DNA of 33,671 nucleotides from a virus. A program made the position numbers and the translations under genes. Position 1 is the stretch's first letter, and every line of letters starts with the position of its first letter. Location: IMG/VR virus record IMGVR_UViG_3300015373_000025, positions 1 to 33,671 of that record; one strand, written 5' to 3'. The notes under the pieces were generated by a model. The model worked only from the letters and a program-made list of their open reading frames with translations, was not told where the DNA came from and did no database searches. Positions 4,541-28,220 of this stretch are shown one piece after another.

Positions 4541-4542
4541 CC

Positions 4543-5703
4543 ATGCGCGCCGAGCTCGACACCTTCATCGACGATCTCCCCGACATGGACCCGGTCATCG
4601 CGACCGAGACCACGCACTACGGCTGGCGTGGGTTGACAAGCGGCGGCGAGGTGCTCGAGGTGAAAGGCGGCCCTATCCCCGATAACCTCACAGTCGCTTG
4701 CGCGGGTTTGGCGATCGGGCGTCGCAAAGTCACTAACGACACGTCGGTCGATATCAGTGATTATCTCAGGCGCTTCAATGGCGTGGTCGACGCCTACAAG
4801 GCGAACCGTTTAGACGAGGCACTGAGCATGGCCTCACTCGTCACTCCTCCCACCATCAGGTCTAAGTTCAATCGCGCCATGGTGCTTCTCGCCGCAGGGC
4901 GATGGCACGAAGGTCTGCACGAGTACTGGGAGTGCGAGCAGTTTGAGCCATTCATGCGTCCTCAGGTCAAGGAGGCGCTCGAGCTCGGGCTAAAGCCGTG
5001 GATGGGTGAAACGACGGGCAAAGGCGTCGTTATCATGCACGCCCATGGGTTCGGTGACACTCTCATGATGCTGAGGTTCTTGCCTCGGGTACGCGCACTT
5101 GAAAGAGTGTCGCTGCTCGTTCCTCGTGAGCTTCGCCGCCTCGTGCAAGGCGATATCAGCCCAGCGGGTTGTGAGTACTACTGCCCCATTCTTCATCTCT
5201 TGCACTTCTTGAACATCTCCCCACAAGACGTCCGCTCGTGTTCGTACATTCGCCCCGACTCGCGTCTGGTCGAGCGATGGCTCTTGCGCATAAACTCGCC
5301 GCGCAAGAAGATCGGCGTCGCGTGGTCAGTGGGTAAGCCCAGCGTGGGTGACTATCCGCGCGAGATGCCGCTAGAGACTCTTGTCTCCGCTCTCAGAGGT
5401 TCTGACGTCGAGCTTCATAGCGTGCAGGCGCAGGGCGAGGACGAGGCCCGCGCTCTCGGAGTCAAGACTCACACCTACGACGACTTCGCCGACTGCGCCG
5501 CGGTCATGAGCCTGATGGATGAAATCGTCAGCGTTGACACCGCCGCGTTGCATCTCGCCGGCGCGATCGGCCATCCCAAAGTATTTGCCTTGCTGTCGCA
5601 TTGGCATAGCTGGAGGTGGATTGCCCCTTGGTACGAAAACGTCAAGCTCTGCGTGCAGCTTTCGCCAGGAGACTGGCTGAGCTCTATTGCGCAAGTCATA
5701 TGA
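4543..5703 (+). CDS. TPR-linked glycosyltransferase-like protein (GT-B, GT9-like)
   Basis: About 386 residues. The N-terminal part is unassigned; a short helical repeat region at about 80-145 (VDAYKANRLDEAL and FNRAMVLLAAGRWHEGL) looks like TPR units. The remainder resembles the heptosyltransferase-like domain often joined to TPRs: HGFGDTLMMLRFLP at 168-181, and a C-terminal donor-side segment with D..VSVDTAALHLAGAIG at about 325-340 followed by W...WY. It would move a sugar from a nucleotide donor; substrate unknown. It lies between two capsid genes beside a methyltransferase, hinting at virion glycosylation. ATG 4543 follows the capsid stop by two bases; GTG 4531 is an in-frame alternative. 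Confidence 0.75.
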   Translation: MRAELDTFIDDLPDMDPVIATETTHYGWRGLTSGGEVLEVKGGPIPDNLTVACAGLAIGRRKVTNDTSVDISDYLRRFNGVVDAYKANRLDEALSMASLVTPPTIRSKFNRAMVLLAAGRWHEGLHEYWECEQFEPFMRPQVKEALELGLKPWMGETTGKGVVIMHAHGFGDTLMMLRFLPRVRALERVSLLVPRELRRLVQGDISPAGCEYYCPILHLLHFLNISPQDVRSCSYIRPDSRLVERWLLRINSPRKKIGVAWSVGKPSVGDYPREMPLETLVSALRGSDVELHSVQAQGEDEARALGVKTHTYDDFADCAAVMSLMDEIVSVDTAALHLAGAIGHPKVFALLSHWHSWRWIAPWYENVKLCVQLSPGDWLSSIAQVI

Positions 5704-6278
5704 TGCGACGTTTTACTTGGATGGAGTTGGGCGTCACTCCCATCGAGGGCCCCTTCTCCAAGTACATGACGGCGCAAGAGACGGCGATCTTGGTGACTCT
5801 AATCGGACTATCCGACCCTAAAGTGGTGATTGAGTTCGGGTGCAACGAGGGCGTGACGTCGAAGCGCATCCTCGACAACGTGCCGAGCATCGAGAAGTAT
5901 ATCGGCATAGACGTGGCGATCGACCACGTCCCTGTGCTGGGGTGTCAGTTCTGGGAAGTGCCCAAGCATCCTGGCGCCTACGCTGCCAGCGACGCACGTT
6001 TTCAACTGCTGACTTCGCCGTCGCAGTACTTGACCGCTGACATGCTCGAGCCGTGTGACGCTGTATTCATCGATGGGGACCACAGCGAGAGAGTCGTCTT
6101 GCACGAGAGCAACATCGCAAGAAGGCTAGTCAGGCCTGGCGGCATCATCTGCTGGCACGACTTTCAGAACCCAGCTGTCGAGGTGACGCGCGCTATACAC
6201 AAGCTGTGCGATCAAGGTTGGCCCATCAATTGCGTCGAGCATTCGTGGCTCGCGTTCACGGAGGTGAGTCATGTCTAA
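5700..6278 (+). CDS. class I SAM-dependent methyltransferase-like protein
   Basis: A 192-residue protein starting at ATG 5700 (ATGA overlap) or the adjacent ATG 5703. The SAM-binding glycine loop is EFGCNEG at residues 45-51, followed by a strand ending YIGID, and then FIDGDH at 123-128. This order fits the Methyltransf_24 type of small-molecule or sugar methyltransferase rather than a DNA methylase: no DPPY or NPPY motif is present. It probably works with the glycosyltransferase-like gene directly upstream, perhaps capping a glycan. The stop lies inside the start of the protease-capsid gene (8-base overlap). Confidence 0.8.
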   Translation: MMRRFTWMELGVTPIEGPFSKYMTAQETAILVTLIGLSDPKVVIEFGCNEGVTSKRILDNVPSIEKYIGIDVAIDHVPVLGCQFWEVPKHPGAYAASDARFQLLTSPSQYLTADMLEPCDAVFIDGDHSERVVLHESNIARRLVRPGGIICWHDFQNPAVEVTRAIHKLCDQGWPINCVEHSWLAFTEVSHV

Positions 6279-8421
6279 GCGACGGGCGCATTGCAAAAGC
6301 ACCAAAGAGAACTACGACGACTTCATGGACGAGTGCATCCAAGAAGTGCTCGACAACGAGGACGCCGAGGACGAAGAGGAAGCCAGAGATCAATGCCAAG
6401 AGATGTGGGACGAGCGCAGCGCAGGCAAGGCCACGTGTTACAAGACGCATGCCTCCGACAAGACTAATGGCATGGAGTTCATTCTGTCCGACGAAACGCC
6501 GGACCGCATGGACGATGTGATCATGAGTGATGGGTGGGAGTTGAAGGCGTTCAAGAAAAACCCGATCGCACTTTTCAGTCACCGCTCGGACTTCCCCATC
6601 GGCACGTGGTCGAACATCCGAGTCGAGGACAAGCAGTTGCGGGGGCACTTGAACTTAGCACAGCGTGGGACGTCGGAGCGCATCAACGAAATTATCAGTC
6701 TAGTCGAACAAGGAGTTCTCAGGGCGGTGTCCGTAGGCTTCAAGCCATTGGAGATCAAGGACAGGGAAGGAAGTGAGTGGGGCTACGAGTACGTGCGCAG
6801 TGAGCTGGTCGAGACGAGTCTCGTCGCGGTGCCGGCAAACCCGAACGCCCTCGCAGTCGCGAAGTCGATGAATATATCTCCCGAGACAATCGATCTGGTC
6901 TTCGCCGGGCAAGGCAATAGAGACGGGATCAGGCGTCGTGGGTTCAACGGCGGGAAAGCCAAATCACATACCAGCGAAAGGAGTCGAGGCATGTCCAGCC
7001 TTGCTCAGCGTATCATGGACTTGGAGACAGCGATTGTCACCAGGCGAGACCAACTCGAGGCACACCTCGACAAGATGAATGACAGCAACGTCAGCGATGC
7101 AGACCTGGAGACGACCAGGAACCTCAATGCTGAAATCGCGCAATATGAAAGGACGCACGAGACTCTCGTCGCGTCGGAGAGGCTGCTCGCCAAGCAGACG
7201 CAAGACCCGCCGACCCAGCGCAGCCGCGCCTTGAGCACGACTGTTCTGTCAGGCGATGACAGGCGTCCGCCCGCCGCTCCCGCGGTCATCACCCACCGCA
7301 AGCCCGACAGCATCGATCTGATGGACTACTTCGTCCGCGCAGCGGCCGTGATGTACGCGTCCAAGGCGTGGCCGAACCAGCACATGGATGGAGTTAGGCA
7401 ACGGGTCAACCAGCTGGGCAAGCCGCTCGACGACGAGGCGACCAAGGTCGTCTGTGATATCGTCCTGCGCGCTGCGTCGGCGCCCGCCTTGACTACGGTC
7501 ACTGGATGGGCGGCTGAGCTCGCTCAGACCACGTACGCCGGCTTGATGCCTCTCCTGATGCCCAAGGCGATCTTGACGCGACTCGCCGCTCGCGGCTTGT
7601 CTCTCGGCTTTGGCGCAGCGGGTAGGATTGTCATCCCGACGCGCAACCGCACCCCGAGCCTCGCCGGATCATTCGTCGGCGAAGGTCTGCCCATTCCTGT
7701 CAGGCAGGGCGCGTTCTCGTCCCAGACGCTGACCCCCAAGAAGATGGCGGTCATCACGACTTGGACGAAGGAGATGGACGAGCACAGCATCCCCGCAATC
7801 GAAGGACTCCTGAGGGAAGCTATCCAGCAGGATACGTCGGTGGCGGTTGACACGGTGCTGCTCGACGCAAACCCGGCCACGGTCATTCGTCCGGCCGGAC
7901 TGCTCAACGGCGTCAGCGTGACCACCGCGACTGCGGGTGGAGGCCTCGCTGCATTGATCGGCGATATCGGCGCGCTGATCAGCGCTATCACCACTAACAC
8001 GTTCGGCAACGTGCGTGGGTTGGTGTGGCTGACGAACCCGACTGATATGCTTCGCGCGTCGCTCACTGCGGCGGCAAACACGGGCATATTCCCCTTCCGC
8101 GATGATATCGCCAGGGGCACCTTGAACGGCATTCCTATCATCGACTCGGCGACGGTGACGGCGAAGACCTTGATCTTGGTCGACGCGGCTGACTTCGTGG
8201 CGGTGGGTGGGGACGCCCCGAGGATGGAGATGAGCGATCAGGCAACGCTGCACATGGAAGACACGACTCCGCTCGAGCTGGTGGCGTCGCCGTCGACTGT
8301 TGCTGCGCCTCAGCGCTCGCTATTCCAGACTGACTCTCTCGCCCTGCGCATGGTGCTCCCATTGAATTGGGTGCAGCGTCGTACGGGCACGGTCGCCTGG
8401 ACGCAGAACGTCACTTGGTGA
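6271..8421 (+). CDS. prohead protease - major capsid protein fusion
   Basis: 716 residues in one frame. Residues ~10-50 are an acidic helix with paired Cys, like the small domain that often precedes phage head proteases. Residues ~66-215 match the HK97-type serine protease (Peptidase_U35/S78): His104 in FSHRSDFPIG, Ser154 in RAVSVGFKP, and the SLVAVPANPNA strand. Residues 241-310 form a coiled coil like the HK97 delta scaffold, followed by the capsid domain to the end (EG.PIPVRQ, RPAGLLNGVS, RSLFQTDSLAL). Protease and capsid are usually separate genes. An internal SD and ATG at 6991 suggest that a separate capsid is still made. No stop or frameshift is visible between the two parts. Confidence 0.9.
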   Translation: MSKRRAHCKSTKENYDDFMDECIQEVLDNEDAEDEEEARDQCQEMWDERSAGKATCYKTHASDKTNGMEFILSDETPDRMDDVIMSDGWELKAFKKNPIALFSHRSDFPIGTWSNIRVEDKQLRGHLNLAQRGTSERINEIISLVEQGVLRAVSVGFKPLEIKDREGSEWGYEYVRSELVETSLVAVPANPNALAVAKSMNISPETIDLVFAGQGNRDGIRRRGFNGGKAKSHTSERSRGMSSLAQRIMDLETAIVTRRDQLEAHLDKMNDSNVSDADLETTRNLNAEIAQYERTHETLVASERLLAKQTQDPPTQRSRALSTTVLSGDDRRPPAAPAVITHRKPDSIDLMDYFVRAAAVMYASKAWPNQHMDGVRQRVNQLGKPLDDEATKVVCDIVLRAASAPALTTVTGWAAELAQTTYAGLMPLLMPKAILTRLAARGLSLGFGAAGRIVIPTRNRTPSLAGSFVGEGLPIPVRQGAFSSQTLTPKKMAVITTWTKEMDEHSIPAIEGLLREAIQQDTSVAVDTVLLDANPATVIRPAGLLNGVSVTTATAGGGLAALIGDIGALISAITTNTFGNVRGLVWLTNPTDMLRASLTAAANTGIFPFRDDIARGTLNGIPIIDSATVTAKTLILVDAADFVAVGGDAPRMEMSDQATLHMEDTTPLELVASPSTVAAPQRSLFQTDSLALRMVLPLNWVQRRTGTVAWTQNVTW
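6977..6993 (+). promoter_or_regulatory. internal ribosome-binding site and ATG for the capsid part
   Basis: AAAGGAG at 6977-6983 sits seven bases before an in-frame ATG at 6991. The protein from there (MSSLAQRIMDLE...) begins exactly at the coiled-coil scaffold segment, as a normal stand-alone major capsid gene would. This is among the best SD matches in the window. Confidence 0.6.
6991..8421 (+). CDS. major capsid protein from internal start (in-frame product)
   Basis: Predicted second product of the fusion gene: 476 residues from ATG 6991, comprising a delta-type coiled coil (first ~70 residues) and the HK97-fold capsid domain. In HK97 the delta segment is cleaved by the prohead protease after assembly; here the protease would be the upstream part of the same frame. 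A mixture of many free capsid chains and a few protease-linked chains would supply stoichiometry without a separate protease gene. This is inference from the ribosome-binding site and domain boundary; proteomics is needed. Confidence 0.55.
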   Translation: MSSLAQRIMDLETAIVTRRDQLEAHLDKMNDSNVSDADLETTRNLNAEIAQYERTHETLVASERLLAKQTQDPPTQRSRALSTTVLSGDDRRPPAAPAVITHRKPDSIDLMDYFVRAAAVMYASKAWPNQHMDGVRQRVNQLGKPLDDEATKVVCDIVLRAASAPALTTVTGWAAELAQTTYAGLMPLLMPKAILTRLAARGLSLGFGAAGRIVIPTRNRTPSLAGSFVGEGLPIPVRQGAFSSQTLTPKKMAVITTWTKEMDEHSIPAIEGLLREAIQQDTSVAVDTVLLDANPATVIRPAGLLNGVSVTTATAGGGLAALIGDIGALISAITTNTFGNVRGLVWLTNPTDMLRASLTAAANTGIFPFRDDIARGTLNGIPIIDSATVTAKTLILVDAADFVAVGGDAPRMEMSDQATLHMEDTTPLELVASPSTVAAPQRSLFQTDSLALRMVLPLNWVQRRTGTVAWTQNVTW

Positions 8422-8431
8422 GGTGACGACA

Positions 8432-8527
8432 GTGGGGCGACATACGTTCATCGAAGGCTTAAAGATCGCAGGTGTGATTGCGGGGGTAGCGCTTCTCATC
8501 TACGGTCTTTATGTCGTGTTCAACTAG
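8432..8527 (+). CDS. tiny single-span membrane protein 2
   Basis: A 31-residue frame starting at GTG 8432, with GAGGTGA about five bases upstream overlapping the capsid stop region. A basic, polar N-terminus (VGRHTFIEGLK) precedes one hydrophobic span (IAGVIAGVALLIYGLYVVF) reaching almost to the end. It fills the spacer between the capsid gene and the next gene, which starts 9 bases after its stop. Function unknown; size and position match the other tiny membrane proteins in this operon. Confidence 0.5.
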   Translation: MGRHTFIEGLKIAGVIAGVALLIYGLYVVFN

Positions 8528-8536
8528 GAGAGTCAC

Positions 8537-8839
8537 ATGTCATCGACAAAACTTTCTGAAGACCCCGCGACCGAAGCTGCTAAGAAAGCAGTCGAGGAAG
8601 ACAAGAAGATGGCGGCGCGATCAAGGGCCGAGTACGCCGAGCGTTCGAAAGGCAAGCCGACTCCTACGCAGGAGGAGAACGATCTCGCCATGCACGGCGC
8701 GCACATTCTCGAGCACGAGGACGACGGCAGCGGGCCTGACCCATATCAGACGCGTCAGATGGAGCCAGCTCACGCGTCGGGCAAGCCGGCGAACTATACG
8801 ACTAGGTCAACTGGATCGTCCAAGGCCCACAGCGAGTAG
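8537..8839 (+). CDS. hypothetical hydrophilic protein
   Basis: A 100-residue, strongly charged and probably largely disordered protein: Lys/Glu-rich helix at 10-40, then PTPTQEENDLA and EHEDDGSGPDP, and a Ser/Thr-rich tail. A good SD (AGGAG) sits about six bases before ATG 8537. I recall similar short proteins beside portal genes in alphaproteobacterial phages, but no function is established. It could be an assembly factor for head or portal. It ends six bases before the portal start. Confidence 0.6.
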   Translation: MSSTKLSEDPATEAAKKAVEEDKKMAARSRAEYAERSKGKPTPTQEENDLAMHGAHILEHEDDGSGPDPYQTRQMEPAHASGKPANYTTRSTGSSKAHSE

Positions 8840-8845
8840 CTGAGC

Positions 8846-10252
8846 ATGCGCGCGTTGATCGCCAGCACCCTTCGCTCAATCTTAAAATCGGTCGAGGGTC
8901 AATTTCGCCCCGGGCCTTACTACCTACCCATCACGGGTGGGTGGTTGCCCGATGGCGCGGCGATCAACTGGTGGCAAGAGGGTTATAACCCGATGTATGC
9001 CACCACATGCTCGGCGATGGTCGAGGCGTGCGTGTCAGCGTATGCTCAGACCATCGCCATGTGTCCTGGCGACCACTGGCGAGCTACACCTAAAGGCGGG
9101 CGAGAGCGGGTGAAGAACTCCGCCCTCGCTCGCATCTTGCGACGTCCGAACGACTATCAGTCGATCAGCGATTTCCTGTTGAACGCGGTCAGGTGCTTGT
9201 ACCTGACAGGTAACGCCTACGCTCTGGCGTTGCGCAACTCCCGCTATGAAGTCACTGAAGTCCACTTGATGCATCCCGAGATGTCATATCCTCGCCTGGC
9301 AGAAACGGGCGACATTTTCTACAGTCTACGCGGCAACGATATCGTCGCGAAGAGGTTCAATGACGAAGACCTGATCGTGCCCATGCGAGATGTGCTGCAC
9401 ATCAGGCTACACGTCAATCGCCGTTTTCCCACGCCGTTGATCGGCGAGAGCCCCATCGTCGCCGCTTACGGCGACATTGGCATCTCGGACTCGATCGCCA
9501 AGCAGCAGATGAATTTCTATCGCAACGAGGCGCGCCCCAGCGCCGTCCTGTCGACTGACTTGGTGCTTGACAAGGATCAGGTGCAGTCGTTGCGCGATCG
9601 GTGGAACGAACAAGTGAAAGGCGCCGGGCAGGGTGGGACACCCATCTTGACCGCAGGCCTCAAGGTCCAACCATGGGCGTTCGGAGGCAAGGACGCCAAC
9701 ACTGCTGAGATGCTCAGGCTGAGCAACGAGCACGTGGCGTTGGCGTTCAGAGTGCCTCTTCAGATCTTAGGTCTTGGCGGCCAGTACTCGTCCACTGAGC
9801 TGTTGATGCAGTCGTGGATTGCGTCGGGCCTGGGCTTCGCGCTTAATCACGTCGAAGAGGCGTTCGGTCTTTTATTCTCGCTTCGAGGACAGCCTGACGA
9901 GTACGTTGAGTTCGACACCTCGGCGCTCCTGCGCTCGGCGTTCAAGGATCGTATTGAAGGACTCGCCCGCGCTGTGCAGGGCGGCATCTACGCTCCGAAC
10001 GAAGCGCGCAACGAAGAGAGCCTTGATGCTGTCGAGTTCGGGGATGAGCCTCGCGTGCAACAGCAAGTCGTGCCTCTGAGCGCCGCTGCTGAAATCCCGG
10101 CTGCCCCAGCCGCTCCATCTGCGCCCGCAGCTCCCGCCGCCCCTCCTCCGGAGAAGGTCGATGACTATGCATCAATTCAACGGGAAGCCAAGCACATCCT
10201 CCGACTCACTGACGACATTCGCCGACGAAGACGAGCATCATCTGGCCCTTGA
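8846..10252 (+). CDS. portal protein
   Basis: A 468-residue HK97-family portal (Phage_portal): a dodecamer at one head vertex through which terminase pumps DNA and to which the tail attaches. Diagnostic stretches are NPMYATTCSAMVEACVSAYA, LLNAVRCLYLTGNAYAL, the VLHIRLH..R.....LIGESPI block, KDANTAEMLRLSNEHVALAF and VP..ILGL..QYSSTELLMQ. The last ~70 residues are Ala/Pro-rich (about 412-432) then basic, a likely flexible tail. The final 92 bases also encode the start of the collagen-like gene in another frame. The SD before ATG 8846 is weak. Confidence 0.93.
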   Translation: MRALIASTLRSILKSVEGQFRPGPYYLPITGGWLPDGAAINWWQEGYNPMYATTCSAMVEACVSAYAQTIAMCPGDHWRATPKGGRERVKNSALARILRRPNDYQSISDFLLNAVRCLYLTGNAYALALRNSRYEVTEVHLMHPEMSYPRLAETGDIFYSLRGNDIVAKRFNDEDLIVPMRDVLHIRLHVNRRFPTPLIGESPIVAAYGDIGISDSIAKQQMNFYRNEARPSAVLSTDLVLDKDQVQSLRDRWNEQVKGAGQGGTPILTAGLKVQPWAFGGKDANTAEMLRLSNEHVALAFRVPLQILGLGGQYSSTELLMQSWIASGLGFALNHVEEAFGLLFSLRGQPDEYVEFDTSALLRSAFKDRIEGLARAVQGGIYAPNEARNEESLDAVEFGDEPRVQQQVVPLSAAAEIPAAPAAPSAPAAPAAPPPEKVDDYASIQREAKHILRLTDDIRRRRRASSGP

Positions 10253-18514: not shown

Positions 18515-20083
18515 ATGCCAGTATCATTCAGCAACATTCCTTCCAATTGGCGGCAGCCGCTTTACTGGGTCGAGATCGATCCCAGCAAAGCCGGGCTACC
18601 CGTGTTCAGGCTTCCTGCCTTGCTCGTTGGCATCAAGACCTCGGTGGGCACTGCGCCCGTTGACACGCCTGTTCCTGTGGCGTCATCGGCGCAAGGCGAC
18701 TCGCTGTTTGGCGTGGGCTCGCATCTCGCCCACATCTGCCGCGCGTTCTTCCGCAACAATGCGGCGCAGGAGACGTGGGCGTTGCCCGTGGCTGAAGCGG
18801 CGGGCGGCACTGCAGCAACAGGAACAATCACTTTTGTTGGCACTGCGACAGCGGCGGGGCAAATCGATCTTTACATTGGCGGCCATCACATACAAGTCAT
18901 AGCCGCGGCTGGCGACGTCGCTGCGTCAATTGCGACGAACTTCAAAGCCGCGTGCGACAAAGATGTGACCTTGCCTTTCACTGCGGCAACTCCTGTCGCT
19001 GCTGCCACGACCATGACGTGCAAGTGGAAAGGCATTTCGGGCAACGACATTATCATGTCGGACTCGTACTACAATGGCCCCGGAGGCGAGAGCCTTCCTC
19101 CTGGCATCACTATCACTTACTCCAACCCAACGACGGGTGGAGGCGGTACGTTCAGTGGTGGTGCAGGCGTTCCCATATTCACCGCAGGCATTGCGGCCCT
19201 CGGCGAAATGGAGGCAGAGTATGTTTGCCTTCCCTTCACTGACTCGACGTCCTTGCTAGCGTGGGAGACCGAGTATGGGTTCTCCGACTCAGGGCGCTGG
19301 GGATGGATGCGACAGAAGTTCGGATCGATCTGGTCCGCCTTCCGCGGCACCTACGCCACGTGCTTGACCTTCGGGCAAGGGCGCAATACGCCACAGACGT
19401 CAATCATGGCCGTTGAAGCGTTGATGCCATCACCCATATGGGACGTCGCGGCGGCGTACACCGCCAAGGCGGCACGTGGGTATACCAACGACCCGGCGCG
19501 ACCGCTGCAGAGCCTGCACCTCGACGGCATTCTCCCCGCTCGACGTCAGAACCGCTTCCTCATGAGCGAGCTCAATTCCCTTTCGCTCAACGGCATGGCG
19601 ACACAGCGAACCGAGTCCGATAACGTGCCCATGATCGCACGAGAAACAACGACGTACCAGAAGAACCTGTATGGGTACGCCGACGACGCGTACACTGACG
19701 CGACCACGCTGGCGACTCTCGCTCGCCTGCTGCGCAATCAGCGTCAGGCGATCACGTCGAAGTTCCCACGCCACAAGATAGCGGATGATGGGACTCGCTT
19801 CGGAGCAGGCCAGGCTATTGTTACGCCCATGTCGATCAAGGCCGAGCTGGTGTCGCAGTATCGCATTGACGAGTTCAACGGGCTCGTTGAAAACGCCCAG
19901 GCATTCAAGGCCAACTTGATTGTCGAGCGTGACAGCAACGACCCAACGCGCGTCAATGTGCTCTACCCGCCTGACTTGATCAATGGCTTGAGGCTGTTCG
20001 CCGTGCTGGCGCAGTTCAGGCTGCAGTACAACCGCGGCGTTGACACGACTCTAACGACGGCGCAGATCGGCACCTTCAATTAG
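18515..20083 (+). CDS. Mu-like tail sheath protein
   Basis: A 522-residue contractile sheath subunit, matching the size and pattern of Mu gpL: the N-terminal MPVSFSNIPSNWRQPLYWVE, an inserted Gly/Thr-rich domain at about 95-235, and the C-terminal end (YRIDEFNGLVENAQAFKANL ... DPTRVNVLYPPDLINGLRLF), which is the conserved sheath region. It polymerises around the tail tube and contracts on infection. It is preceded by a strong SD (AAAGGAGAA) and is followed by tandem hairpins before the tube gene. The internal insertion is a beta-rich decoration domain. Confidence 0.9.
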   Translation: MPVSFSNIPSNWRQPLYWVEIDPSKAGLPVFRLPALLVGIKTSVGTAPVDTPVPVASSAQGDSLFGVGSHLAHICRAFFRNNAAQETWALPVAEAAGGTAATGTITFVGTATAAGQIDLYIGGHHIQVIAAAGDVAASIATNFKAACDKDVTLPFTAATPVAAATTMTCKWKGISGNDIIMSDSYYNGPGGESLPPGITITYSNPTTGGGGTFSGGAGVPIFTAGIAALGEMEAEYVCLPFTDSTSLLAWETEYGFSDSGRWGWMRQKFGSIWSAFRGTYATCLTFGQGRNTPQTSIMAVEALMPSPIWDVAAAYTAKAARGYTNDPARPLQSLHLDGILPARRQNRFLMSELNSLSLNGMATQRTESDNVPMIARETTTYQKNLYGYADDAYTDATTLATLARLLRNQRQAITSKFPRHKIADDGTRFGAGQAIVTPMSIKAELVSQYRIDEFNGLVENAQAFKANLIVERDSNDPTRVNVLYPPDLINGLRLFAVLAQFRLQYNRGVDTTLTTAQIGTFN

Positions 20084-20164: not shown

Positions 20165-20524
20165 ATGGCTCAACGTATCGCTGGCACCGCGTTCATGAAA
20201 GTGGACGGTGCGATCTATCCCTTGCGAGGCAACTTCACAGTCAGTCCATCGTCGCTCGAACGTGCGGGCATCTCGGGGCAGGATTACATCCACGGGTTCT
20301 CCGAGATGCCGCGCGTCCCATTCATCGAGGGTGACGTGTCGCTCGTGCCCAATCTATCGATGGACGACGTGCAGGCAGTGACTCAAGCCACTGTCACAGC
20401 TGAGCTGGCCAACGGCAAGGTCTACGTGTTGCGCGAGGCGTGGTGTCGCGCTGCTCTCGAGCTCAACACCCGTGAGGGCCAGGCTCGCATCCGCTTCGAA
20501 GGAGTGAGCTGCGACGAACTATAA
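20165..20524 (+). CDS. Mu-like tail tube protein
   Basis: A 119-residue tube subunit (Phage_tail_tube, Mu gpM type). Typical features are RIAGTAF.KVDG..Y.LRGNFTVSPSS..R.G..GQD..HG and P.VPFIEGDVS, with LSM.D..AVT..TVT.ELANGK.Y.LR..WC and a final EL. Rings of this protein form the inner tube that sheath surrounds. AGGAGGAAG before ATG 20165 is a very strong SD, fitting a highly made protein. Confidence 0.92.
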   Translation: MAQRIAGTAFMKVDGAIYPLRGNFTVSPSSLERAGISGQDYIHGFSEMPRVPFIEGDVSLVPNLSMDDVQAVTQATVTAELANGKVYVLREAWCRAALELNTREGQARIRFEGVSCDEL

Positions 20525-20533
20525 GAGGACAAC

Positions 20534-20857
20534 ATGCCTGAAGAGAACAAACAAGTAAACGGCAAGGCAGTCGATCTGATCAAGATCGGATTACGGAAAT
20601 CGGTCGTCGCTAACGGCGAGGAAACGAACGAGCTTGCGTTCCGTGAACCCACGGCCGGTGACATTGAGCGTCATGGCAACCCTGTCCTGCTCGATATGGC
20701 GGCTGATCCACCGAGGATCAGTTTCGACAGTCGCGCCATGACCGCAATGATGTCAGCGTTGGCAACAGTTCCTCCCTCGACTATCCGCCAGCTCCACCCA
20801 AAAGATTGGAATACTGCGGCGTGGATGCTGGCGGATTTTTTTCTTCCGGTGTTCTGA
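20534..20857 (+). CDS. tail assembly chaperone (Mu gp41-like), zero-frame product
   Basis: A 107-residue protein. LAFREPTAGDIERHGNPV, ISFDS..M.AMMSALATVP.STI..L and DWNTAAWMLADFF are the conserved regions of Mu gp41-type chaperones, which coat the tape measure before tube assembly and are not in the virion. The AAGAGGA SD lies about eight bases before ATG 20534. The end contains a run of seven T that allows a -1 shift into the overlapping frame, which is usual for this gene. Confidence 0.85.
   Translation: MPEENKQVNGKAVDLIKIGLRKSVVANGEETNELAFREPTAGDIERHGNPVLLDMAADPPRISFDSRAMTAMMSALATVPPSTIRQLHPKDWNTAAWMLADFFLPVF
20836..20842 (+). promoter_or_regulatory. -1 ribosomal frameshift site (TTTTTTT)
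   Basis: The run is phased T TTT TTT in the chaperone frame, exactly the X XXY YYZ form needed for tandem -1 slippage. After slippage the reading continues with TCT TCC GGT into a frame open for 55 codons. A short inverted repeat (AGGAT at 20861-20865, ATCCT at 20869-20873) lies downstream; whether it stimulates shifting is uncertain. Confidence 0.75.
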
Positions 20858-21009
20858 CGGAGGATATCATCCTGGATTGTTACCGCCTCGCTAAGTACTA
20901 CAGCCTCGATCCAGATGATTTCTTGAACAAACCGTTATCCGTAATTGCTCGTCATATGAAATGGACGAGCGTGTTGATCGAGCGACAACGGCCGCCCGAA
21001 GATGACTGA
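20842..21009 (+). CDS. frameshifted C-terminal extension of the tail assembly chaperone
   Basis: This frame has no good start of its own and would be read only by -1 shifting at the T run, giving a fusion of about 158 residues (103 from the zero frame plus 55). Its sequence LDCYRLAKYYSLDPDDFL.KPLS.I.RHM is the helix-turn-helix pattern seen in long forms of tail chaperones (the gpGT-type extension that contacts tube protein in lambda). It ends eight bases inside the first tape measure gene. The long form is expected in small amounts. Confidence 0.75.
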   Translation, partial: SSGVLTEDIILDCYRLAKYYSLDPDDFLNKPLSVIARHMKWTSVLIERQRPPEDD

Positions 21010-22915
21010 AAAAACTGAGTTCGAGATTGCGCTACGCGATAGCATCAGCCCTGGCTTGAAAGCAGTCGCACGTCAATTGAAGGAACTGAACGCCTCGGTC
21101 GTAGCATCGAGCACCCCGAGCGCGGCAAGCACTGATCACTTGACGCGGCAGACGACTCTCCTAGGATCAGCGGCGCGTAACACCTTGCGTGACCTCGAGG
21201 GCGTGGGGTCATTCCTGGTCGGCGCTGGCAAGGGAATACTAGGAGTGGGTGGAAGCATCGCGACGGTCAAAGCACTGGCGTCGTCGATCAGCAACCTCGC
21301 CTTGAGTCGCGTGCAGATGACGATGTTCTCAAAGGACACGCGCCTTGCGGCCGACGACGTTCAGAAGCTACGCGACGCTCTCAGTGCGATGGGCATGGCC
21401 GCGACGAACGCCGATAGTGTTATCTCGAACTTGAGCGGCAAGTTGCAGGAGATGCAGGCGTTCAAGCAGGACAGTCAATTGTGGAAAGACCTGTCGAGGA
21501 TGGGCGAGGGCGGCGTAAGGCTCGCGAATGAATTGATGAACGAGAAGGATGTGATGAAATCAATCCGTCGCATCTTGGAGGTGTACAGGACGCAAGGAAC
21601 GCAGGCTCAGATCGCACTCGAGCGCATGCTCGGCGTCCCCGCGTCAGTGTTGCAGAACTTGGAGCAAGAACTCGGCAAGGTTAGAGACCGTCCACAGGTG
21701 TCCGAGAAGATCGCTCAAGACTTTCTCGACAACCAGATTAAGCTGAGCAATCGCTTGAACACTGAGTGGGTATTGTTCGCAACGCACGCCATGGAGGAGA
21801 TCAACAAGTTCTTTGACGAGATTGACGAGGAGACGTGGGGCAAAACACCCATCGCTGATTTCTTGATCAGTGAGTTCGACCACGTCACCACTAAGATCAA
21901 GGCGACGAAGGAGGAGCTAGAAGCGATCGACAAGTTCGCCAAAGATCTGTCTGAAAGACTCGGTAAACCCACTGACGTTCGCGATCGATTGCGCGAGTCG
22001 CTCAACCCATTCTTCCCCAAGCAGAGCTGGGAGGACAAGCCGCTTCAGCAACTGAAGACCGACCAGAACAAGTTGCTGAGAAGCATTGACGACGCGCTAA
22101 AGAACCTGTTCGGAGGAGGCGGCGAGCCCGGAGCAGGTGTCGGCACAGGCGCAGGTGGTGAGTCAGGAGGCGGTGGAGGCGGAGATGATACCGGTCCTCC
22201 CGCTGTCAGATCACGTGGTGCACGAGGCGGTGAGCGAACAGGTGCGGATGACACCACAAAAGGTGACACTACGACAGGGGATGCCAGTGTCGTACCTACC
22301 TCTCCTGAAGTGCGAGACAAGACCGGAGTCGCGGGATTTATCGTGCATCACACTGGTGGGCGTGGCGATCCTCGCAGCGTGGTTGAGGACTGGCGAGCGC
22401 ATCGTCCTGGCGTTGGGACGCGCTACATCACGGACCGCCAGGGCAACATTCACGATGTGTGGTCGGAGTACAACTATCACCCACAGGGCATGGGTGGTGG
22501 CATCCTGCCAGGATGGGGCCGAGGTGTAGGCCTGTCCAATCGCAACGTCGTCGGTATGGAGGTGGTCGCACGCAATGACCGTGACGTAACAGACGCGCAA
22601 GTCGAGGCGGTGAGAAAGTTTCTTCGAGAAAAATTCGCCGACGTTCCCGTGTATGGTCATGGCGAGGTCAATCCTGGTCACAGGGAAGCAGACGAAGGTA
22701 TGCGGATCGTCGGTGCGGTCCGTGCTGAACGTCAGAGCCAACGTGCGACGATGGACAGTGCAAGCGATAGCGTATGGAAGAAAGGTACATCGTCCATCAA
22801 GTTCAATTTCAACAATGTGCCAGAAGGCGTCAAGACGAATGTCCAAGCTGGTGGTTCATTCACCAATGTCGAAGTGAGTCGTAAGAGTGCGATTGAAGAG
22901 AGAGCGCCTGACTGA
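21002..22915 (+). CDS. tape measure protein 1 with C-terminal N-acetylmuramoyl-L-alanine amidase domain
   Basis: 637 residues. The N-terminus (EIALRDSISPGLKAVARQLK) and long helices to ~370 are the tape measure part that sets tail length, with a hydrophobic patch at about 68-100 that may act in the membrane. A Gly-rich linker (376-389 and beyond) leads to an Amidase_2/PGRP-type domain from about 443: His449/His450 in IVHHTGG, NVVGMEVVARN, and HGEVNPGH (His553, His560). It would cleave peptidoglycan when injected. A C-terminal tail (VWKKGT...) follows. It overlaps the chaperone extension by eight bases and the next gene by one. Confidence 0.85.
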   Translation: MTEKTEFEIALRDSISPGLKAVARQLKELNASVVASSTPSAASTDHLTRQTTLLGSAARNTLRDLEGVGSFLVGAGKGILGVGGSIATVKALASSISNLALSRVQMTMFSKDTRLAADDVQKLRDALSAMGMAATNADSVISNLSGKLQEMQAFKQDSQLWKDLSRMGEGGVRLANELMNEKDVMKSIRRILEVYRTQGTQAQIALERMLGVPASVLQNLEQELGKVRDRPQVSEKIAQDFLDNQIKLSNRLNTEWVLFATHAMEEINKFFDEIDEETWGKTPIADFLISEFDHVTTKIKATKEELEAIDKFAKDLSERLGKPTDVRDRLRESLNPFFPKQSWEDKPLQQLKTDQNKLLRSIDDALKNLFGGGGEPGAGVGTGAGGESGGGGGGDDTGPPAVRSRGARGGERTGADDTTKGDTTTGDASVVPTSPEVRDKTGVAGFIVHHTGGRGDPRSVVEDWRAHRPGVGTRYITDRQGNIHDVWSEYNYHPQGMGGGILPGWGRGVGLSNRNVVGMEVVARNDRDVTDAQVEAVRKFLREKFADVPVYGHGEVNPGHREADEGMRIVGAVRAERQSQRATMDSASDSVWKKGTSSIKFNFNNVPEGVKTNVQAGGSFTNVEVSRKSAIEERAPD

Positions 22916-24888
22916 TGCCACGCCAAGAAGAAATGGAGATCGCCCTTCGCGACAGCATCAGCCCTGGGCTCAAGGCGATCGCACGCGAGTTGAAGGCGTT
23001 GAACCAAGCGGCGAGAGAAGCGGCTTCAGGGACAACCCAAGAACTCGACAACATCGAGAAGCGCACGAAAAACTTGAGCGAGTCGTCGCGTCAGACGATG
23101 CGCAACATGCAGGAGATGTTCTCGCGCGTCCTCGATTACGGCAAGGCCATCGTCGGGATCGGAGGCACCGTCGAGGCGGTCAAGCAACTGACCCACTCCT
23201 TGACTGAGCTCGCCGAGACGCGCGTTCAACTGGAGATGTTCTCACTCGACACGCGCATTGGTGCTCAGGATATAGACACCATGCGCAACGCCATAGGGAG
23301 GATGGGCATTGAGGCCAAGCAAGCCGATCAGTACATCGCGGCCATGTCCGACAAGTTGCAAGAACTCAACGCGAGGCGCGAAGGCTCGCCGCTGTTTCAA
23401 GAACTGTTGAAGATGCCAGGAGGCGCGGCGTTCGGGCAACGACTGCTCGCTATTCCTCAGGGTCCTGACCAGATCAAGCAACAGATCAAAATGATCACTG
23501 ACACGATCAAGGACGAGTCGCCTGGAATGCAGTTCGTCATCGCCAAGATGTTCGGCATCCCTCAGTCAGTGCTGATCAGCTGGGACGAATACATGGAGAA
23601 GGCGCAGCGAGTGTTGCGCGTTCCTCCTGAAGTGGCTAAGGCATACTACGACAATCTCAAGGACGTGCAGGACAAGATTGACGACGAGTGGAACCTCTTC
23701 GGCGCGCACGCGATGGAGGCTATCAACAAGTGGTTCAACGACTTGAAGGGAGTGGGTGACCAGCACAAGGACGACCACCCCATCAGCAACTTCTTCATCG
23801 GCGAGTTCGACGGCATCACCAAAGCAATCCAAGGCACGGTCGAAGAGATCAAGTGGTTCAAGCAGACGTTGCAGGATGTAGTCGATTGGTGGCGCCCCGA
23901 CTTGAAGAAGGGACGCGAGGACGTCGAACGTACGGGCGAGCCCGGCAGTCCTTACTATGGACCCGCAGCGCCTAAGGGAAAACCTGGCGCAGGTGTGGGC
24001 ACTGGGGCAGGCGGCGAGAGTGGGGCAGCCATAGCTGATGAAGTGCGGCGACAAGAGGAAACTAATAAATTGCTCGACAGCATCAGGCAGTCGCTAGAGC
24101 GCGAAGGTACTGCCGGTTACGGCGTTGGGTTGCGTCACCCCGGTGGCGCGATGCAGGCTAGGGTCGGTGGCTTTCGACCGATGCGAGGCGCACGTGGCGG
24201 CGGGGGGCGTGGTGCTGGTGGTACGGACGAAGGGCCGGTAGGACCCGCAACGGGTGCACTCGCTGACAGGATTGGCGAAGCCAAGAGGGCATTCGAAGAA
24301 CAGTTGCGCAAGGAGGGCGTGCCGGAAGCGAACGTCAAAGAAGCAGCCAATCTTTTAGCCGGGCAAGCGCTAGCAGAAAGCTCGATGAACCCGCGCACTA
24401 GTCACGATCAGGGCACTGGGTATGGCATCTACGGTGCGCGCTTAGAACGACGCGCGGCGATGCTGGCGTGGATGAAGGCGAACGGCTACGCCCCAGATAG
24501 TCTCGAAGGACAGGCGAAGTTCATGGCGCACGAAGCCATGAGCAGCGCTTATCCCCGCACACGTGGTGCATTGATGGGCGCTGATCCAGCATCTCGAAGC
24601 GAACGTACTGACGCCATTACGCGCGAGTTCGAGCGTCCAGCAGTTATTAACCCACGCACGCGGCAAGTCGACAGGGCGGCCGCCACCACTATGGATGAAT
24701 ACCAGAAACGCGATATGTGGAAGGAAGGTACCGCCGAGGTGCGCGTCGACTTCGGGGACACCAAAGAACGCAACAAAGAGAGCAAGCCTGACGGCGGGGT
24801 GTTCAAGCCGTTGAACAATGAGCGCGAGCCGCAGTCGCCCAAGTCGGGAAACCCGGCGACGTTTTCCGATCGTTGGTATTTTCAATAA
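22915..24888 (+). CDS. tape measure protein 2 with C-terminal tail lysozyme domain
   Basis: 657 residues, a clear paralogue of the preceding gene: same N-terminus (EIALRDSISPGLKAIARELK), same helix layout, and an identical linker PGAGVGTGAGGESG at 360-373. After the linker the enzyme differs. Residues about 445-580, with LLAGQALAESSMNP (candidate catalytic Glu488), GTGYGIYG, AMLAWMKANGY and FMAHEAMSS, resemble the phage tail lysozyme family (Phage_lysozyme2). The tail MWKEGTAEVRVDF again resembles the end of protein 1. The duplication kept both ends and exchanged the hydrolase. It overlaps the hub gene by one base. Confidence 0.85.
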   Translation: MPRQEEMEIALRDSISPGLKAIARELKALNQAAREAASGTTQELDNIEKRTKNLSESSRQTMRNMQEMFSRVLDYGKAIVGIGGTVEAVKQLTHSLTELAETRVQLEMFSLDTRIGAQDIDTMRNAIGRMGIEAKQADQYIAAMSDKLQELNARREGSPLFQELLKMPGGAAFGQRLLAIPQGPDQIKQQIKMITDTIKDESPGMQFVIAKMFGIPQSVLISWDEYMEKAQRVLRVPPEVAKAYYDNLKDVQDKIDDEWNLFGAHAMEAINKWFNDLKGVGDQHKDDHPISNFFIGEFDGITKAIQGTVEEIKWFKQTLQDVVDWWRPDLKKGREDVERTGEPGSPYYGPAAPKGKPGAGVGTGAGGESGAAIADEVRRQEETNKLLDSIRQSLEREGTAGYGVGLRHPGGAMQARVGGFRPMRGARGGGGRGAGGTDEGPVGPATGALADRIGEAKRAFEEQLRKEGVPEANVKEAANLLAGQALAESSMNPRTSHDQGTGYGIYGARLERRAAMLAWMKANGYAPDSLEGQAKFMAHEAMSSAYPRTRGALMGADPASRSERTDAITREFERPAVINPRTRQVDRAAATTMDEYQKRDMWKEGTAEVRVDFGDTKERNKESKPDGGVFKPLNNEREPQSPKSGNPATFSDRWYFQ

Positions 24889-25955
24889 TGGTAGGAAAAG
24901 CTACAGAGCAGGCGATGCTCCTCGTTAACGGCCAGGAGTTCAGGGACTGGGAGACAGTGTGGGTGCGTCACGCCGAACGCGAGCAGCCGCCCTACCGCTT
25001 TCGCTTCACCTGCTCCGAGGTCATGCCGATCGCCAAGAACTGGGGCGTACTGCAAGTCAAGCCGGGCGACACGTGCGAAGTATACCTCGCCGGTATCAAA
25101 GCGATCAAGGGCAAGGTCTCGACCCGCCAGGTGTACTACGACAAGCGACGTCACTACATCGAGATACAAGGCGCGACCTTCACCTTAGACCTGTCAGGCT
25201 CGAGCCCGATCAACAAGACGATGGAGCATAAGAACGTCACCTTCGAGCAACTGGCGCGATCGCTGCTCAAGCCTTACAACATCCCTTTCAAAGTCGAAGG
25301 CGGGCAACTGTCACAACTGAAATTTCCGCGCGTCTCGTTGATGCACGGAGTCAGCGTGTTCGATCACTTGGACCTATACTCGCGCGCCGTAGGCGCATCA
25401 TTCACCAGCGACGCTGAAGGATCATTCGTCGCGCTCGCAGGACCAGGAGGTGGGTCAGACTCGGTGGTCGAGGGCGAGAACATCCTGATCGGGCGCGAGA
25501 TAATCTACAACGCCAGCATGGAGTCGTCGCTCCCTGCGATGGGGCAGCAGACGGGTAACGACGACAAGCATGGAGCCGACGTCACCCACAAGCCGTTCTC
25601 GCAGGAGCAGATGCAACAGCTGGGCAAGTCGTTCATGCCGTTCGTTATCCCTTCTGAGTTACCCACCGCTGACGTCAATCACTTGAAGGGACGCGCACAG
25701 ACTGAAGGGGGTTGGCTCGCCGAAGATCAGATCACGGTATTCGCGACAGTGTATGGTTGGCTCAGGCCTAGCGGTGGGTTGTGGGATCGTAATCAGACGG
25801 TGCATGTCAAGAGCCCCATGCTGATCATGGATCAAGACCTGCAAGCGAAGTCAGTGACCTTCACACAGGACTCCAGCGAGGGCACACGCACGACACTCGA
25901 GCTATGTAACAAGAACGCACTGAAGGGAATGATGCCCGCTCTAAAGAACCCATGA
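24888..25955 (+). CDS. baseplate hub protein (Mu gpP/gp44-like)
   Basis: A 355-residue protein matching the Mu gpP / T4 gp27-like hub group: an early W..V.V.......YRF.F module, a PGD..EVYLAG beta barrel, GA.FTLDLSGSSP..., and a LLKPYNI.F.VEGG ... F..YSRAVGASF segment; the C-terminal part carries the typical V.SPMLI.D.DL...SVTFTQ pattern. The hub sits between tube and spike. The start at ATG 24888 overlaps the tape measure stop (TAATG). Confidence 0.82.
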   Translation: MVGKATEQAMLLVNGQEFRDWETVWVRHAEREQPPYRFRFTCSEVMPIAKNWGVLQVKPGDTCEVYLAGIKAIKGKVSTRQVYYDKRRHYIEIQGATFTLDLSGSSPINKTMEHKNVTFEQLARSLLKPYNIPFKVEGGQLSQLKFPRVSLMHGVSVFDHLDLYSRAVGASFTSDAEGSFVALAGPGGGSDSVVEGENILIGREIIYNASMESSLPAMGQQTGNDDKHGADVTHKPFSQEQMQQLGKSFMPFVIPSELPTADVNHLKGRAQTEGGWLAEDQITVFATVYGWLRPSGGLWDRNQTVHVKSPMLIMDQDLQAKSVTFTQDSSEGTRTTLELCNKNALKGMMPALKNP

Positions 25956-25962
25956 GGTCAAC

Positions 25963-26859
25963 ATGGCGAATGAACGACAAACTCTCTCGATGCTCGCCAA
26001 TCAAGTGCGACTCAGCTGCTCGCGCGCCACCTGCCGCGAGTTCGACGATGACCATTTGATGCAGCAGATCAAGCACGCCGACGTCTATCACTCTGAGACG
26101 CCCAGCGACTTCGAGCGATGGCAGATGGTGGGTATAACTGCTACGCCCTTGAAGCAAGACGAAGACCAGCAGCAGCAACAGTCCAAGTCATCGCAGAATG
26201 AAGAGGGCGATTGGAACCATAATCAACCGCAGGGTAAGGCAGCTGAGGCGGTTATGCTTTATCCAGGCGGTGCGCGCAGTCATCCTATCGCTATGGTGGA
26301 TGATAGACGTGTACGGCCGTACAAGGTACCAGCAGGTGCCTCGGCTTTTTACGCGGCTTCGGGCACTGGCCAGATGGTTTATCACAATGACGACGGGTCG
26401 TCGGTCGTGACGACGAACAATCCGAAGTATGGCAAGGACGAGAAGGAGAAGGATCGCTACGCCTCGATCCGCCACGTTGAAAAGAAGCCACAAGAACGCA
26501 CCAAGCAGTCGGGCGAAGGCGGTGGTGGCGGCGACACTGGCGACAGTGGCAGCGGCATGAGTGGGTCGTCCCAGCCGTACAAGCACGAGGGCGAAAGCGT
26601 CAACATGGAGGTGCGCGTCACCAAGTCGCGCATTGAGTTTCGCGATGGGGATACGGTCGTGGGTTATTACGACAAGCAGAACAAGCGCTGGTCGTTCACC
26701 GGCGAGATGCGACTCGGCGACGACAACGCGACAGACCCGATCTATGGTGTCAACAAAGACAGCGGCAAGGGACAGACGACTGACACGACGGGCAGTGGGT
26801 CTGTGCTGATCAAAACGACGAAGCCAGGACCACCCACCTCTGGTGATATCAATCCATGA
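25963..26859 (+). CDS. baseplate spike protein (Mu gp45-like)
   Basis: 298 residues. The N-terminal region (RATCREFDD..LMQQIKHADVYHSETPSDFERWQMVGIT) is the OB-fold start of the Mu gp45 family, which forms the membrane-piercing spike; the C-terminal VNMEVRVTKSRIEFRDGDTVV and D.I.GVNKDS part suits the beta-helical tip. Two low-complexity inserts are present: a Gln/Glu-rich stretch at about 65-95 and a Gly-rich stretch at about 185-210, making it longer than Mu gp45. The ATG is seven bases after the hub stop. Confidence 0.8.
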   Translation: MANERQTLSMLANQVRLSCSRATCREFDDDHLMQQIKHADVYHSETPSDFERWQMVGITATPLKQDEDQQQQQSKSSQNEEGDWNHNQPQGKAAEAVMLYPGGARSHPIAMVDDRRVRPYKVPAGASAFYAASGTGQMVYHNDDGSSVVTTNNPKYGKDEKEKDRYASIRHVEKKPQERTKQSGEGGGGGDTGDSGSGMSGSSQPYKHEGESVNMEVRVTKSRIEFRDGDTVVGYYDKQNKRWSFTGEMRLGDDNATDPIYGVNKDSGKGQTTDTTGSGSVLIKTTKPGPPTSGDINP

Positions 26860-27008
26860 TCATGCCGCCCGAAGACTCGTTGATGAAACAGGTCCTCGGG
26901 TTCGACTGGAGCACTGACCTCATACTGATGCTGACTATCCTGTGCTCGCTTGTCGGGTTGTGGTGGGTGTACATTTGCGACGAGTTCGAAGATGACTCAG
27001 ATCTCTGA
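26856..27008 (+). CDS. tiny single-span membrane protein 4
   Basis: A 50-residue frame starting ATG 26856 (ATGA overlap with the spike gene). A polar head of ~20 residues (MIMPPEDSLMKQVLGFDWST) is followed by a hydrophobic span (LILMLTILCSLVGLWWVYI) and an acidic tail (CDEFEDDSDL). It overlaps the next gene by 17 bases. Function unknown; it is the longest of the tiny membrane frames and has the clearest tripartite layout. Confidence 0.6.
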   Translation: MIMPPEDSLMKQVLGFDWSTDLILMLTILCSLVGLWWVYICDEFEDDSDL

Positions 27009-27552
27009 CTATCACAACGCCTGGCGCGACATGCTGATGCAGCAGGCGTCGTTTCGCGGCGTGATTTTCCACGTCGAAACTGGAGCGCGGCTATCAGGAC
27101 GTCGCGCGGTGTTGCACGAGTATCCCAAGAAGAACGACCCGACCGCTGAGGACATGGGGCGTCAGGCGCGCCGGTGGAACTTCTCGGGCTACTTGATCTA
27201 TCGCCCAGCCAATCCCCTATACGAATACACCGCGCAACGGCAAGCGCTGTACTCGGCCCTCGAGGACGATGGGGCAGGGCGACTCGTGCATCCTGTATTC
27301 TGCGCAGGCGGAATGCAAGTGATGTGCGAACGCTACACCATGGTTGAGAACCGCAACCGCGGCGGCTTCACTGAGTTCGAGATGCAGTTCGTAGAGGCGG
27401 GTTCTACGAGCACGTTGCAGATGGTCAACACCGCGTCGCAAGTCAACGGGCAGGCGTCAGCGACCGACTCGTCGGCCACCAACATGATGAACAATGCACC
27501 GACTGACAGCGTGTGGAGCAAGGGCGCGCCAGCGTTCAGGGCATTCGGATGA
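26992..27552 (+). CDS. gpN-like tail/DNA circularization protein, N-terminal half
   Basis: 186 residues matching the DNA_circ_N domain of Mu gpN: WRDMLMQQASFRGVIFHVE...GRR..LHEYPKKNDP..EDMGR.AR..N.SGYLI...NPLYEY...R.AL..AL...GAGRLVHP. The domain sits at the baseplate centre in Mu-type tails; the historic name comes from a role in DNA circularization. The last ~45 residues are Ser/Ala/Asn-rich. The usual second half of gpN is in a separate overlapping gene downstream. Confidence 0.85.
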   Translation: MTQISDYHNAWRDMLMQQASFRGVIFHVETGARLSGRRAVLHEYPKKNDPTAEDMGRQARRWNFSGYLIYRPANPLYEYTAQRQALYSALEDDGAGRLVHPVFCAGGMQVMCERYTMVENRNRGGFTEFEMQFVEAGSTSTLQMVNTASQVNGQASATDSSATNMMNNAPTDSVWSKGAPAFRAFG

Positions 27553-28220
27553 CAATCGCAAGCGAACGCCAGCAACTACAAACTATCATCGACCACATCT
27601 GCACTTACATGCTGCAGATGGTGTCGGCCGAAGGCGAGCAAGCGGCTGAGCTGCGTCGCCGCGTGGGCCTGGTGCGCGTCAATGGTCTGTTCTACATACA
27701 GCAGAAGACCTTCGGCTCGCGCCTGTGGGATTGCTTTGACACTGCGCGTACCTTGCCCATCACCGCAAGCGTCGTGGCGATGGTGCGATATCAGATCAGC
27801 CAGGAGCAACCCGCCGACATGATCGCCACGCTCGTGGTCGAGACCGCCATTATCTTCTGTCTGACGACCGAATGCATATTCATCACGCAGACCGAGTTCA
27901 AGAGTCGCGACGACGTGCAAGTAATGATGGACCGCATGTCGAAAGCCTTCAACGATGCGCGCGAGCAAGCGGCCGATCGCATGGACTCATTGACCTATGA
28001 GAACCTCACGACTCTCGGTGGGTCAATCATCAACCACCTCAACTCAGCGTCCCTCGCCTTGCCCCGCATGGTGCGTTTCGAGTACGCCACGTCGTGGCCT
28101 GCGCTGACGCTCGCGAACTTGATCTATCAGGATGGGTCGAGGTGGCAAGAACTGGTGGACGAGAACAAAGCTGTTCACCCACTCTTCATGCCCAGGTCTA
28201 TAGTAGGACTTAGCGCATGA
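27549..28220 (+). CDS. gpN-like protein, C-terminal half
   Basis: 223 residues, mostly helical. LWDCFDTARTLPI....AMVRYQIS..., a central DV...MDRMSKAFNDARE segment, and LPRMVRFEYATSWPALTLANLIYQD..RWQELV.EN....HPLFM at the end resemble the C-terminal part of Mu gpN-like proteins. It starts in an ATGA overlap with the N-terminal half, so the two would be made together. A split gene rather than a frameshift error is indicated, because each half has a clean start and end. Confidence 0.65.
   Translation: MTIASERQQLQTIIDHICTYMLQMVSAEGEQAAELRRRVGLVRVNGLFYIQQKTFGSRLWDCFDTARTLPITASVVAMVRYQISQEQPADMIATLVVETAIIFCLTTECIFITQTEFKSRDDVQVMMDRMSKAFNDAREQAADRMDSLTYENLTTLGGSIINHLNSASLALPRMVRFEYATSWPALTLANLIYQDGSRWQELVDENKAVHPLFMPRSIVGLSA

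Follow-up and report, generated by a model that had tools for sequence, protein, structure and literature searches.

The tail gene region of IMG/VR virus record IMGVR_UViG_3300015373_000025, which we analysed as a window of 33,671 nucleotides, contains two adjacent open reading frames (ORFs), 21002-22915 and 22915-24888, placed at exactly these coordinates by a preliminary description made from the sequence alone. By homology and gene position, the products of both are tape measure proteins (TMPs), the tail-length rulers of phages. Both carry a putative peptidoglycan hydrolase in the C-terminal half, and the two enzymes belong to different classes. The genes and their parts are as follows.

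21002..22915, plus strand: TMP1, 637 aa, made of a tape measure half, a Gly-rich linker, an amidase and a tail of type A
21002..22061, plus strand: ruler half of TMP1, residues 1-354 approximately, ending at the NKLLRSIDDALK helix
22328..22690, plus strand: amidase cassette of TMP1, residues 443-563, N-acetylmuramoyl-L-alanine amidase class (Pfam PF01510)
22769..22912 (boundary approximate), plus strand: C-terminal tail of TMP1, type A (FNNVPEGVKTN), from alignments and the tail tree
22913..22917, plus strand: TGATG overlap of the TMP1 stop and the TMP2 start, seen in the sequence
22915..24888, plus strand: TMP2, 657 aa, made of a tape measure half, a Gly-rich linker, a lysozyme and a tail of type B
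24355..24690, plus strand: tail-lysozyme cassette of TMP2, from residue 481 (Pfam PF18013)
24712..24885 (boundary approximate), plus strand: C-terminal tail of TMP2, type B (VDFGDTK...FKPLNNEREPQSPKSG...RWYFQ), from alignments and the tail tree

The two proteins are clearly paralogous. BLASTP aligns them from residue 1 with 132 of 409 positions identical (32%, E 4e-65), and the C-terminal tails give a separate match (E 0.001). The common N-terminal motif EIALRDSISPGLKA and the similar tails VWKKGT and MWKEGT, both pointed out in the preliminary description, are indeed present. The N-termini match PHROG 2276, 'tail length tape measure protein' (E 1.7e-9 for TMP1, 9.2e-10 for TMP2), as do those of relatives' TMPs at E 9e-6 to 5e-14, and in the window as in its relatives the TMP genes follow the tail assembly chaperone and precede the hub. 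The proposed amidase and tail-lysozyme-like domain were both recovered above the Pfam cut-offs: Amidase_2 in residues 443-563 of TMP1 (E 4.7e-7; 30.6 bits against a cut-off of 26) and Phage_lysozyme2 in residues 481-591 of TMP2 (E 4.2e-12; 46.9 bits against 28.2). The TGATG overlap may couple the translation of the two genes.

The 14-residue Gly-rich linker PGAGVGTGAGGESG, described earlier as identical in the two proteins, is indeed identical, but its copies are not collinear: it stands at residue 376 of TMP1, after the conserved 'NKLLxxI' helix, and at residue 357 of TMP2, before that helix. Given this offset, and given that the underlying DNA agrees at only 31 of 42 positions, the linker is no evidence of a recent copy. 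At the DNA level the window shows no sign of recent gene conversion, as no exact word of 16 or more bases is common to the two genes.

Tandem pairs and their enzymes

We scanned IMG/VR with alignments of gpP, sheath and TMP2 and obtained about 100 loci. The scans retained the best-scoring loci of patterns derived from the window's group, so that all counts given here describe this neighbourhood of phages. Loci with the same proteins were merged, tandem contigs were counted only when both TMP genes were present, and L024, L026 and L048, where TMP2 is incomplete, were left out. At least 22 non-redundant contigs, the window included, carry two tandem TMPs. In the window and 20 further contigs the pair lies between the chaperone and the gpP-like hub gene; in the 21st, L092, gpN comes next. 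All tandem contigs that reach far enough, except L092, have gpP next and a split gpN behind gp45. The carriers form a group of uncultivated bacterial viruses from soil. No isolate phage with tandem paralogous TMPs was found, the window TMPs had no match in phage (50,697 records) and plasmid collections, and scans of genome contigs with TMP and gpP alignments confirmed no host or prophage. A single TMP occupies the corresponding place in nine related contigs and in the isolates SfV, DVM-2008 and Paraburkholderia phage IPK, in line with the earlier remark that Mu-type tails normally have one tape measure.

The window comes from a single metagenomic virus record, and an assembly artefact, a chimera or a decaying second copy might produce such a pair. 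The survey contradicts this and makes it extremely improbable: the arrangement recurs in 21 other non-redundant contigs, most of which come from different metagenomes, the ORFs are all open and nearly always abut or overlap (the gap between them is -20 to +7 bases in 22 of 22 pairs), and TMP2 is also found in the near-identical contig L001.

We typed the C-terminal halves by library matches, purpose-built cassette profiles, one structure model and sequence motifs. With classes assigned unblinded, by an assigner who knew the hypothesis, all 19 pairs with one enzyme class per gene combine the peptide/amide class with the glycan class, and none has the same class twice. Since the pairs are related, these are not 19 independent events; there are eight distinct family combinations. 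The pairs are as follows (TMP1 / TMP2):

Window: amidase / lysozyme2
L005: YkuD-like / SleB-like
L008: YkuD-like and M15-like / SleB-like
L010, L011, L012, L102: M15-like / SleB-like
L103: NlpC-like / NNPG-type
L043, L056, L059, L065, L073, L085, L091: NlpC-like / SleB-like
L047, L055, L064, L082 (reversed order): SleB-like / NlpC-like

A profile or the structure model supports both sides in 12 of the 19 pairs (the window and eleven NlpC/SleB pairs), and in the remaining seven one side is supported mainly by motifs. Even the four contigs with reversed order keep one cassette of each class. Orthologous TMP genes carry different enzyme families in different contigs, which indicates repeated cassette exchange. 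The NlpC-like assignment builds on TIGR02594, matched at E 3e-12 to 5e-16 in L035, L039, L050, L086, L103 and L079, with a best score of 59.3 bits, below the NCBI curated cut-off of 70.55 bits; by homology, these cassettes are relatives of NlpC-type cysteine peptidases outside the curated subfamily. The NlpC-like cassettes of L043 and others are tied to them by reciprocal first-pass profiles (E 1e-7 to 1e-11). Computation thus shows, by homology and partly by motif, predicted complementary enzyme classes across the clade, which extends to the relatives the earlier suggestion of one peptide-class and one glycan-class enzyme in the window.

Single-TMP relatives and the origin of the pair

Eight of the nine related contigs with a single long TMP (867-1056 aa) have both enzyme classes in that one protein:

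L035, L039, L050, L086: NlpC-like and SleB-like
L041: glucosaminidase and NlpC-like (TIGR02594 match weak, E 0.03)
L074: SleB-like and M15-like
L083: lysozyme2 and M15-like
L079: TIGR02594/CHAP-type and NNPG-type

Pfam matches in these long proteins include Phage_lysozyme2, Glucosaminidase, CHAP and M15_4. Their gene order is TMP-gpN-gpP, except in L074, which has one TMP and yet an already displaced gpN. They resemble the window in having homologous cassettes of both classes and differ in holding both enzymes in one protein of 883-1056 aa, whereas the window has one per TMP. As these relatives already carry both classes, the two-enzyme set is probably not the chance result of one cassette swap, and the tandem pair most likely divides a two-enzyme TMP. 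The preliminary description had proposed a duplication with exchange of the enzyme cassette; duplication and repeated exchange are borne out, but the data are better explained by a two-enzyme TMP that was partitioned than by a duplication with later exchange. What is kept seems to be the two-enzyme set, which the tandem genes divide. We infer this direction from the comparison, and the reverse path, fusion of two TMPs into one, may alternatively have been taken; the isolate TMPs, with no enzyme recognised, do not settle between the two.

The trees add a second layer. In a tree of the N-terminal halves of 56 proteins, the TMP1 and TMP2 groups of a lineage are sisters in all five lineages, with one deviation: the TMP1 rows of the L043 lineage are unresolved around a TMP2 clade. 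For the N-halves of the 45 tandem proteins, a single split by enzyme class is rejected (difference in log-likelihood 628; approximately unbiased test, p 0.00016). The C-terminal tails, on the other hand, separate once into the two enzyme classes, reversed contigs included, with 92/95 support from 66 columns, which are few for 45 rows. A constraint that groups the tails by lineage is rejected for two lineages, the window's (p 0.0002) and that of L043 (p 0.003), and not for the reversed one (p 0.089); all of these p-values are optimistic because the tested groups were named after the N-half tree and the tails had been viewed. N-halves thus follow phage lineage and tails follow enzyme class, through either concerted evolution of the N-halves or shuffling of cassette-plus-tail modules; horizontal shuffling gives a similar pattern to concerted N-halves, and the two are indistinguishable here. 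The reversed contigs do not group together in the sheath tree, where L082 stands beside L059, and this speaks for exchange among phages.

Another possible history is one of repeated, independent duplications, each of which gained another enzyme, as opposed to one duplication with concerted N-halves. The sister partners of each lineage in the N-half tree would follow naturally from it, L092 seems to stand on its own, and the two tandem clades do not come together in the sheath tree. Against this stand the tails, which form two classes across lineages (92/95) and whose grouping by lineage is rejected in two of the three lineages tested, and we consider this history rather unlikely. As to L092 itself, its TMP pair at positions 4134-9554 (1000 and 805 aa) is of another kind: it falls within the single-TMP clade, has gpN next and probably stems from a duplication of its own.

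Proposed delivery of two wall-cutting enzymes

Taken together, these comparisons suggest a divided tape measure, in which two paralogous TMPs would jointly deliver a fixed two-enzyme wall-cutting kit; we regard this as the probable explanation. The two proteins would be translated from the overlapping ORFs. Each keeps a full ruler half of about 350-415 residues. In its C-terminal half, one has an amidase or peptidase cassette with the canonical TMP tail (type A), and the other joins a derived tail (type B) to a cassette of the lysozyme or lytic-transglycosylase kind. Both would be present in the virion, lying in the lumen of the tail, C-termini facing the hub, and would exit ahead of the DNA. 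The wall would then be opened at one spot by presumably active enzymes that cut both stem peptides and glycan strands.

Several observations weigh against this explanation or limit the evidence for it. L106 has no recognised enzyme in TMP1 and M23 plus a SleB-like cassette in TMP2; L107 has glucosaminidase in TMP1 and M23 plus glucosaminidase in TMP2; and L092 has a SleB-like cassette and an M15-like motif in TMP1 and none recognised in TMP2, both classes still being found somewhere in each of these pairs. Among the single-TMP relatives, L040 has a SleB-like cassette only. The YkuD-like, M15-like and NNPG-type assignments are mainly motif-based: for the YkuD-like and M15-like cassettes of L005, L008, L010, L011, L012 and L102 there are motifs only, and the sole library support for M15-like is an M15_4 match below the cut-off (E 0.003) in L074, whose cassette was profiled with those of L011 and L012. 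Searches with YkuD-like, M15-like and NNPG-type cassettes against PDB and phages gave nothing or weak, mostly unnamed matches, and PDB sequence searches with the window domains and divergent cassettes gave nothing useful. The full-length model of L008 TMP1 is poor (predicted local distance difference test, pLDDT, 54.7), making a fold search meaningless, and the YkuD-like and M15-like assignments therefore remain at motif level. The AlphaFold model of the SleB-like domain is good (pLDDT 91.8, from 23 sequences), and its best three PDB matches in Foldseek are catalytic domains of SleB lytic transglycosylases, the rest being noise, but the E values of 0.5-1.4 are weak, with probabilities of at most 0.87 and TM scores by target of 0.51-0.63. 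In the sheath tree the two tandem clades stand apart with weak support (89/78), so that a single origin of the pair is not proven. Finally, the ruler lengths of partners correlate with r 0.77 uncorrected for phylogeny (19 pairs; median 368 for TMP1, 387 for TMP2), the ruler-end helix having been located by the best-scoring 14-mer seeded from known examples, with low-scoring pairs dropped; an earlier regular-expression finder had placed only five pairs (r 0.97) and was then replaced. The correlation mildly supports pairing.

How two such rulers would be packed is a separate question. We tentatively favour a hetero-oligomeric tape measure, a plausible arrangement that goes beyond what is shown here and that may be a little short of an even chance: paralogous rulers would lie side by side in one tail, with N-halves that stay compatible through concerted evolution, C-halves of complementary wall chemistry and, per virion, a fixed ratio of peptide to glycan cutters. 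Alternatively, both proteins may be in the virion unmixed, one forming a homo-oligomeric ruler and the other, a TMP-derived paralogue, acting as a separate lumen or tip-bound carrier of a lysin. The full-length TMP structure known to date, that of diffocin, is a homotrimer (PMC10996793), the divergence of the tails into two classes could mean different docking sites, and L092 TMP2 and L106 TMP1 have no recognised enzyme. Both partners nevertheless keep full-length, length-correlated ruler halves, and the N-halves are closer within lineage than within class, which is what contact with the same tube and with one another would predict, so that we think unmixed rulers somewhat unlikely. Far less probable is an end-to-end arrangement with tail length set by the summed lengths. 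In its favour, some relatives have single TMPs that are longer than one ruler half (about 370 aa); however, in isolates with one TMP and this type of tail the whole protein has 525-611 aa, which means that one window TMP is already of usual length, and the two proteins are homologous in parallel, starting at residue 1 of each.

The clade-wide complementary pair suggests that cuts of both kinds, peptide and glycan, are required where a phage enters. The contigs offer natural cases in which one enzyme set persists through changes of enzyme family, gene order and gene architecture, and the pair opens ruler stoichiometry and the requirement for two chemistries during entry to direct testing.

Known systems and the neighbouring genes

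We found no description of two paralogous TMPs in one tail in the literature searched, which was open-access full text with few subscription papers or preprints. The 'two tape measure proteins' of SuMu (PMC3447690), considered as a precedent, are database homologues matched by mass spectrometry and not paralogous genes. Mycobacteriophage TM4 has a single TMP with a hydrolase domain (PMC1796659); as in the window, the tail ruler has a built-in peptidoglycan hydrolase, but there is one TMP there and two paralogous TMPs with different enzyme classes here. The diffocin particle has a lytic transglycosylase and an NlpC/P60 endopeptidase, both on the hub protein (PMC10996793). It combines a glycan cutter and a peptide cutter in one particle, as predicted for the virus of the window, but has the enzymes on the hub and not on TMPs. 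SfV, DVM-2008 and IPK have the same order of sheath, tube, chaperone and TMP, with homologous sheath, gpN, gpP, gp46 and gp47; they differ in having one TMP with gpN directly after it, whereas the window has two TMPs and a split gpN behind gp45. No enzyme was recognised in the TMPs of these three isolates by eye or with cassette profiles.

The tail of the window is of the Mu/SfV contractile type, and the genes around the TMP pair are the following.

18515..20083, plus strand: tail sheath, Mu gpL-like (Pfam Phage_sheath_1/1C; PHROG 165, E 1e-157)
20165..20524, plus strand: tail tube, Mu gpM-like (Pfam Tail_tube, E 1.3e-33)
20534..20857, plus strand: tail assembly chaperone, Mu gp41 type (Pfam Phage_TAC_7, E 3.9e-10)
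20836..20842, plus strand: T7 run near the end of the chaperone ORF, seen in the sequence
24888..25955, plus strand: gpP-like baseplate hub (Pfam GpP-like domains; PHROG 177, E 9.4e-42)
25963..26859, plus strand: gp45-like spike (Pfam Phage_Mu_Gp45, E 3.3e-6)
26950..28220, plus strand: gpN (DNA circularisation / hub), two overlapping ORFs, 26950-27552 and 27513-28220

The T7 run is a probable programmed frameshift site from the chaperone into ORF 20806-21009, and each of the 22 tandem contigs checked has a run of six or seven T close to the end of its chaperone ORF. The gpP-like hub likely starts at the ATG at 24888, where the ORF list has a TTG at 24873. The window gpN matches DNA_circ_N (E 3.3e-25), and both of its halves match PHROG 184; it lies behind gp45 and not directly after the TMPs, as in tandem-TMP relatives, and gpN is also split into two ORFs in several single-TMP relatives. 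In L008 (8312-11053; Pfam E 1.5e-15) and L007 (597-3338), gpP has an N-terminal extension of about 550 residues that includes a lectin-like Laminin_G_3 domain. Within the head gene region of the window, the protein encoded at 10161-11351 matches many tail-fibre and collagen-like PHROG profiles.

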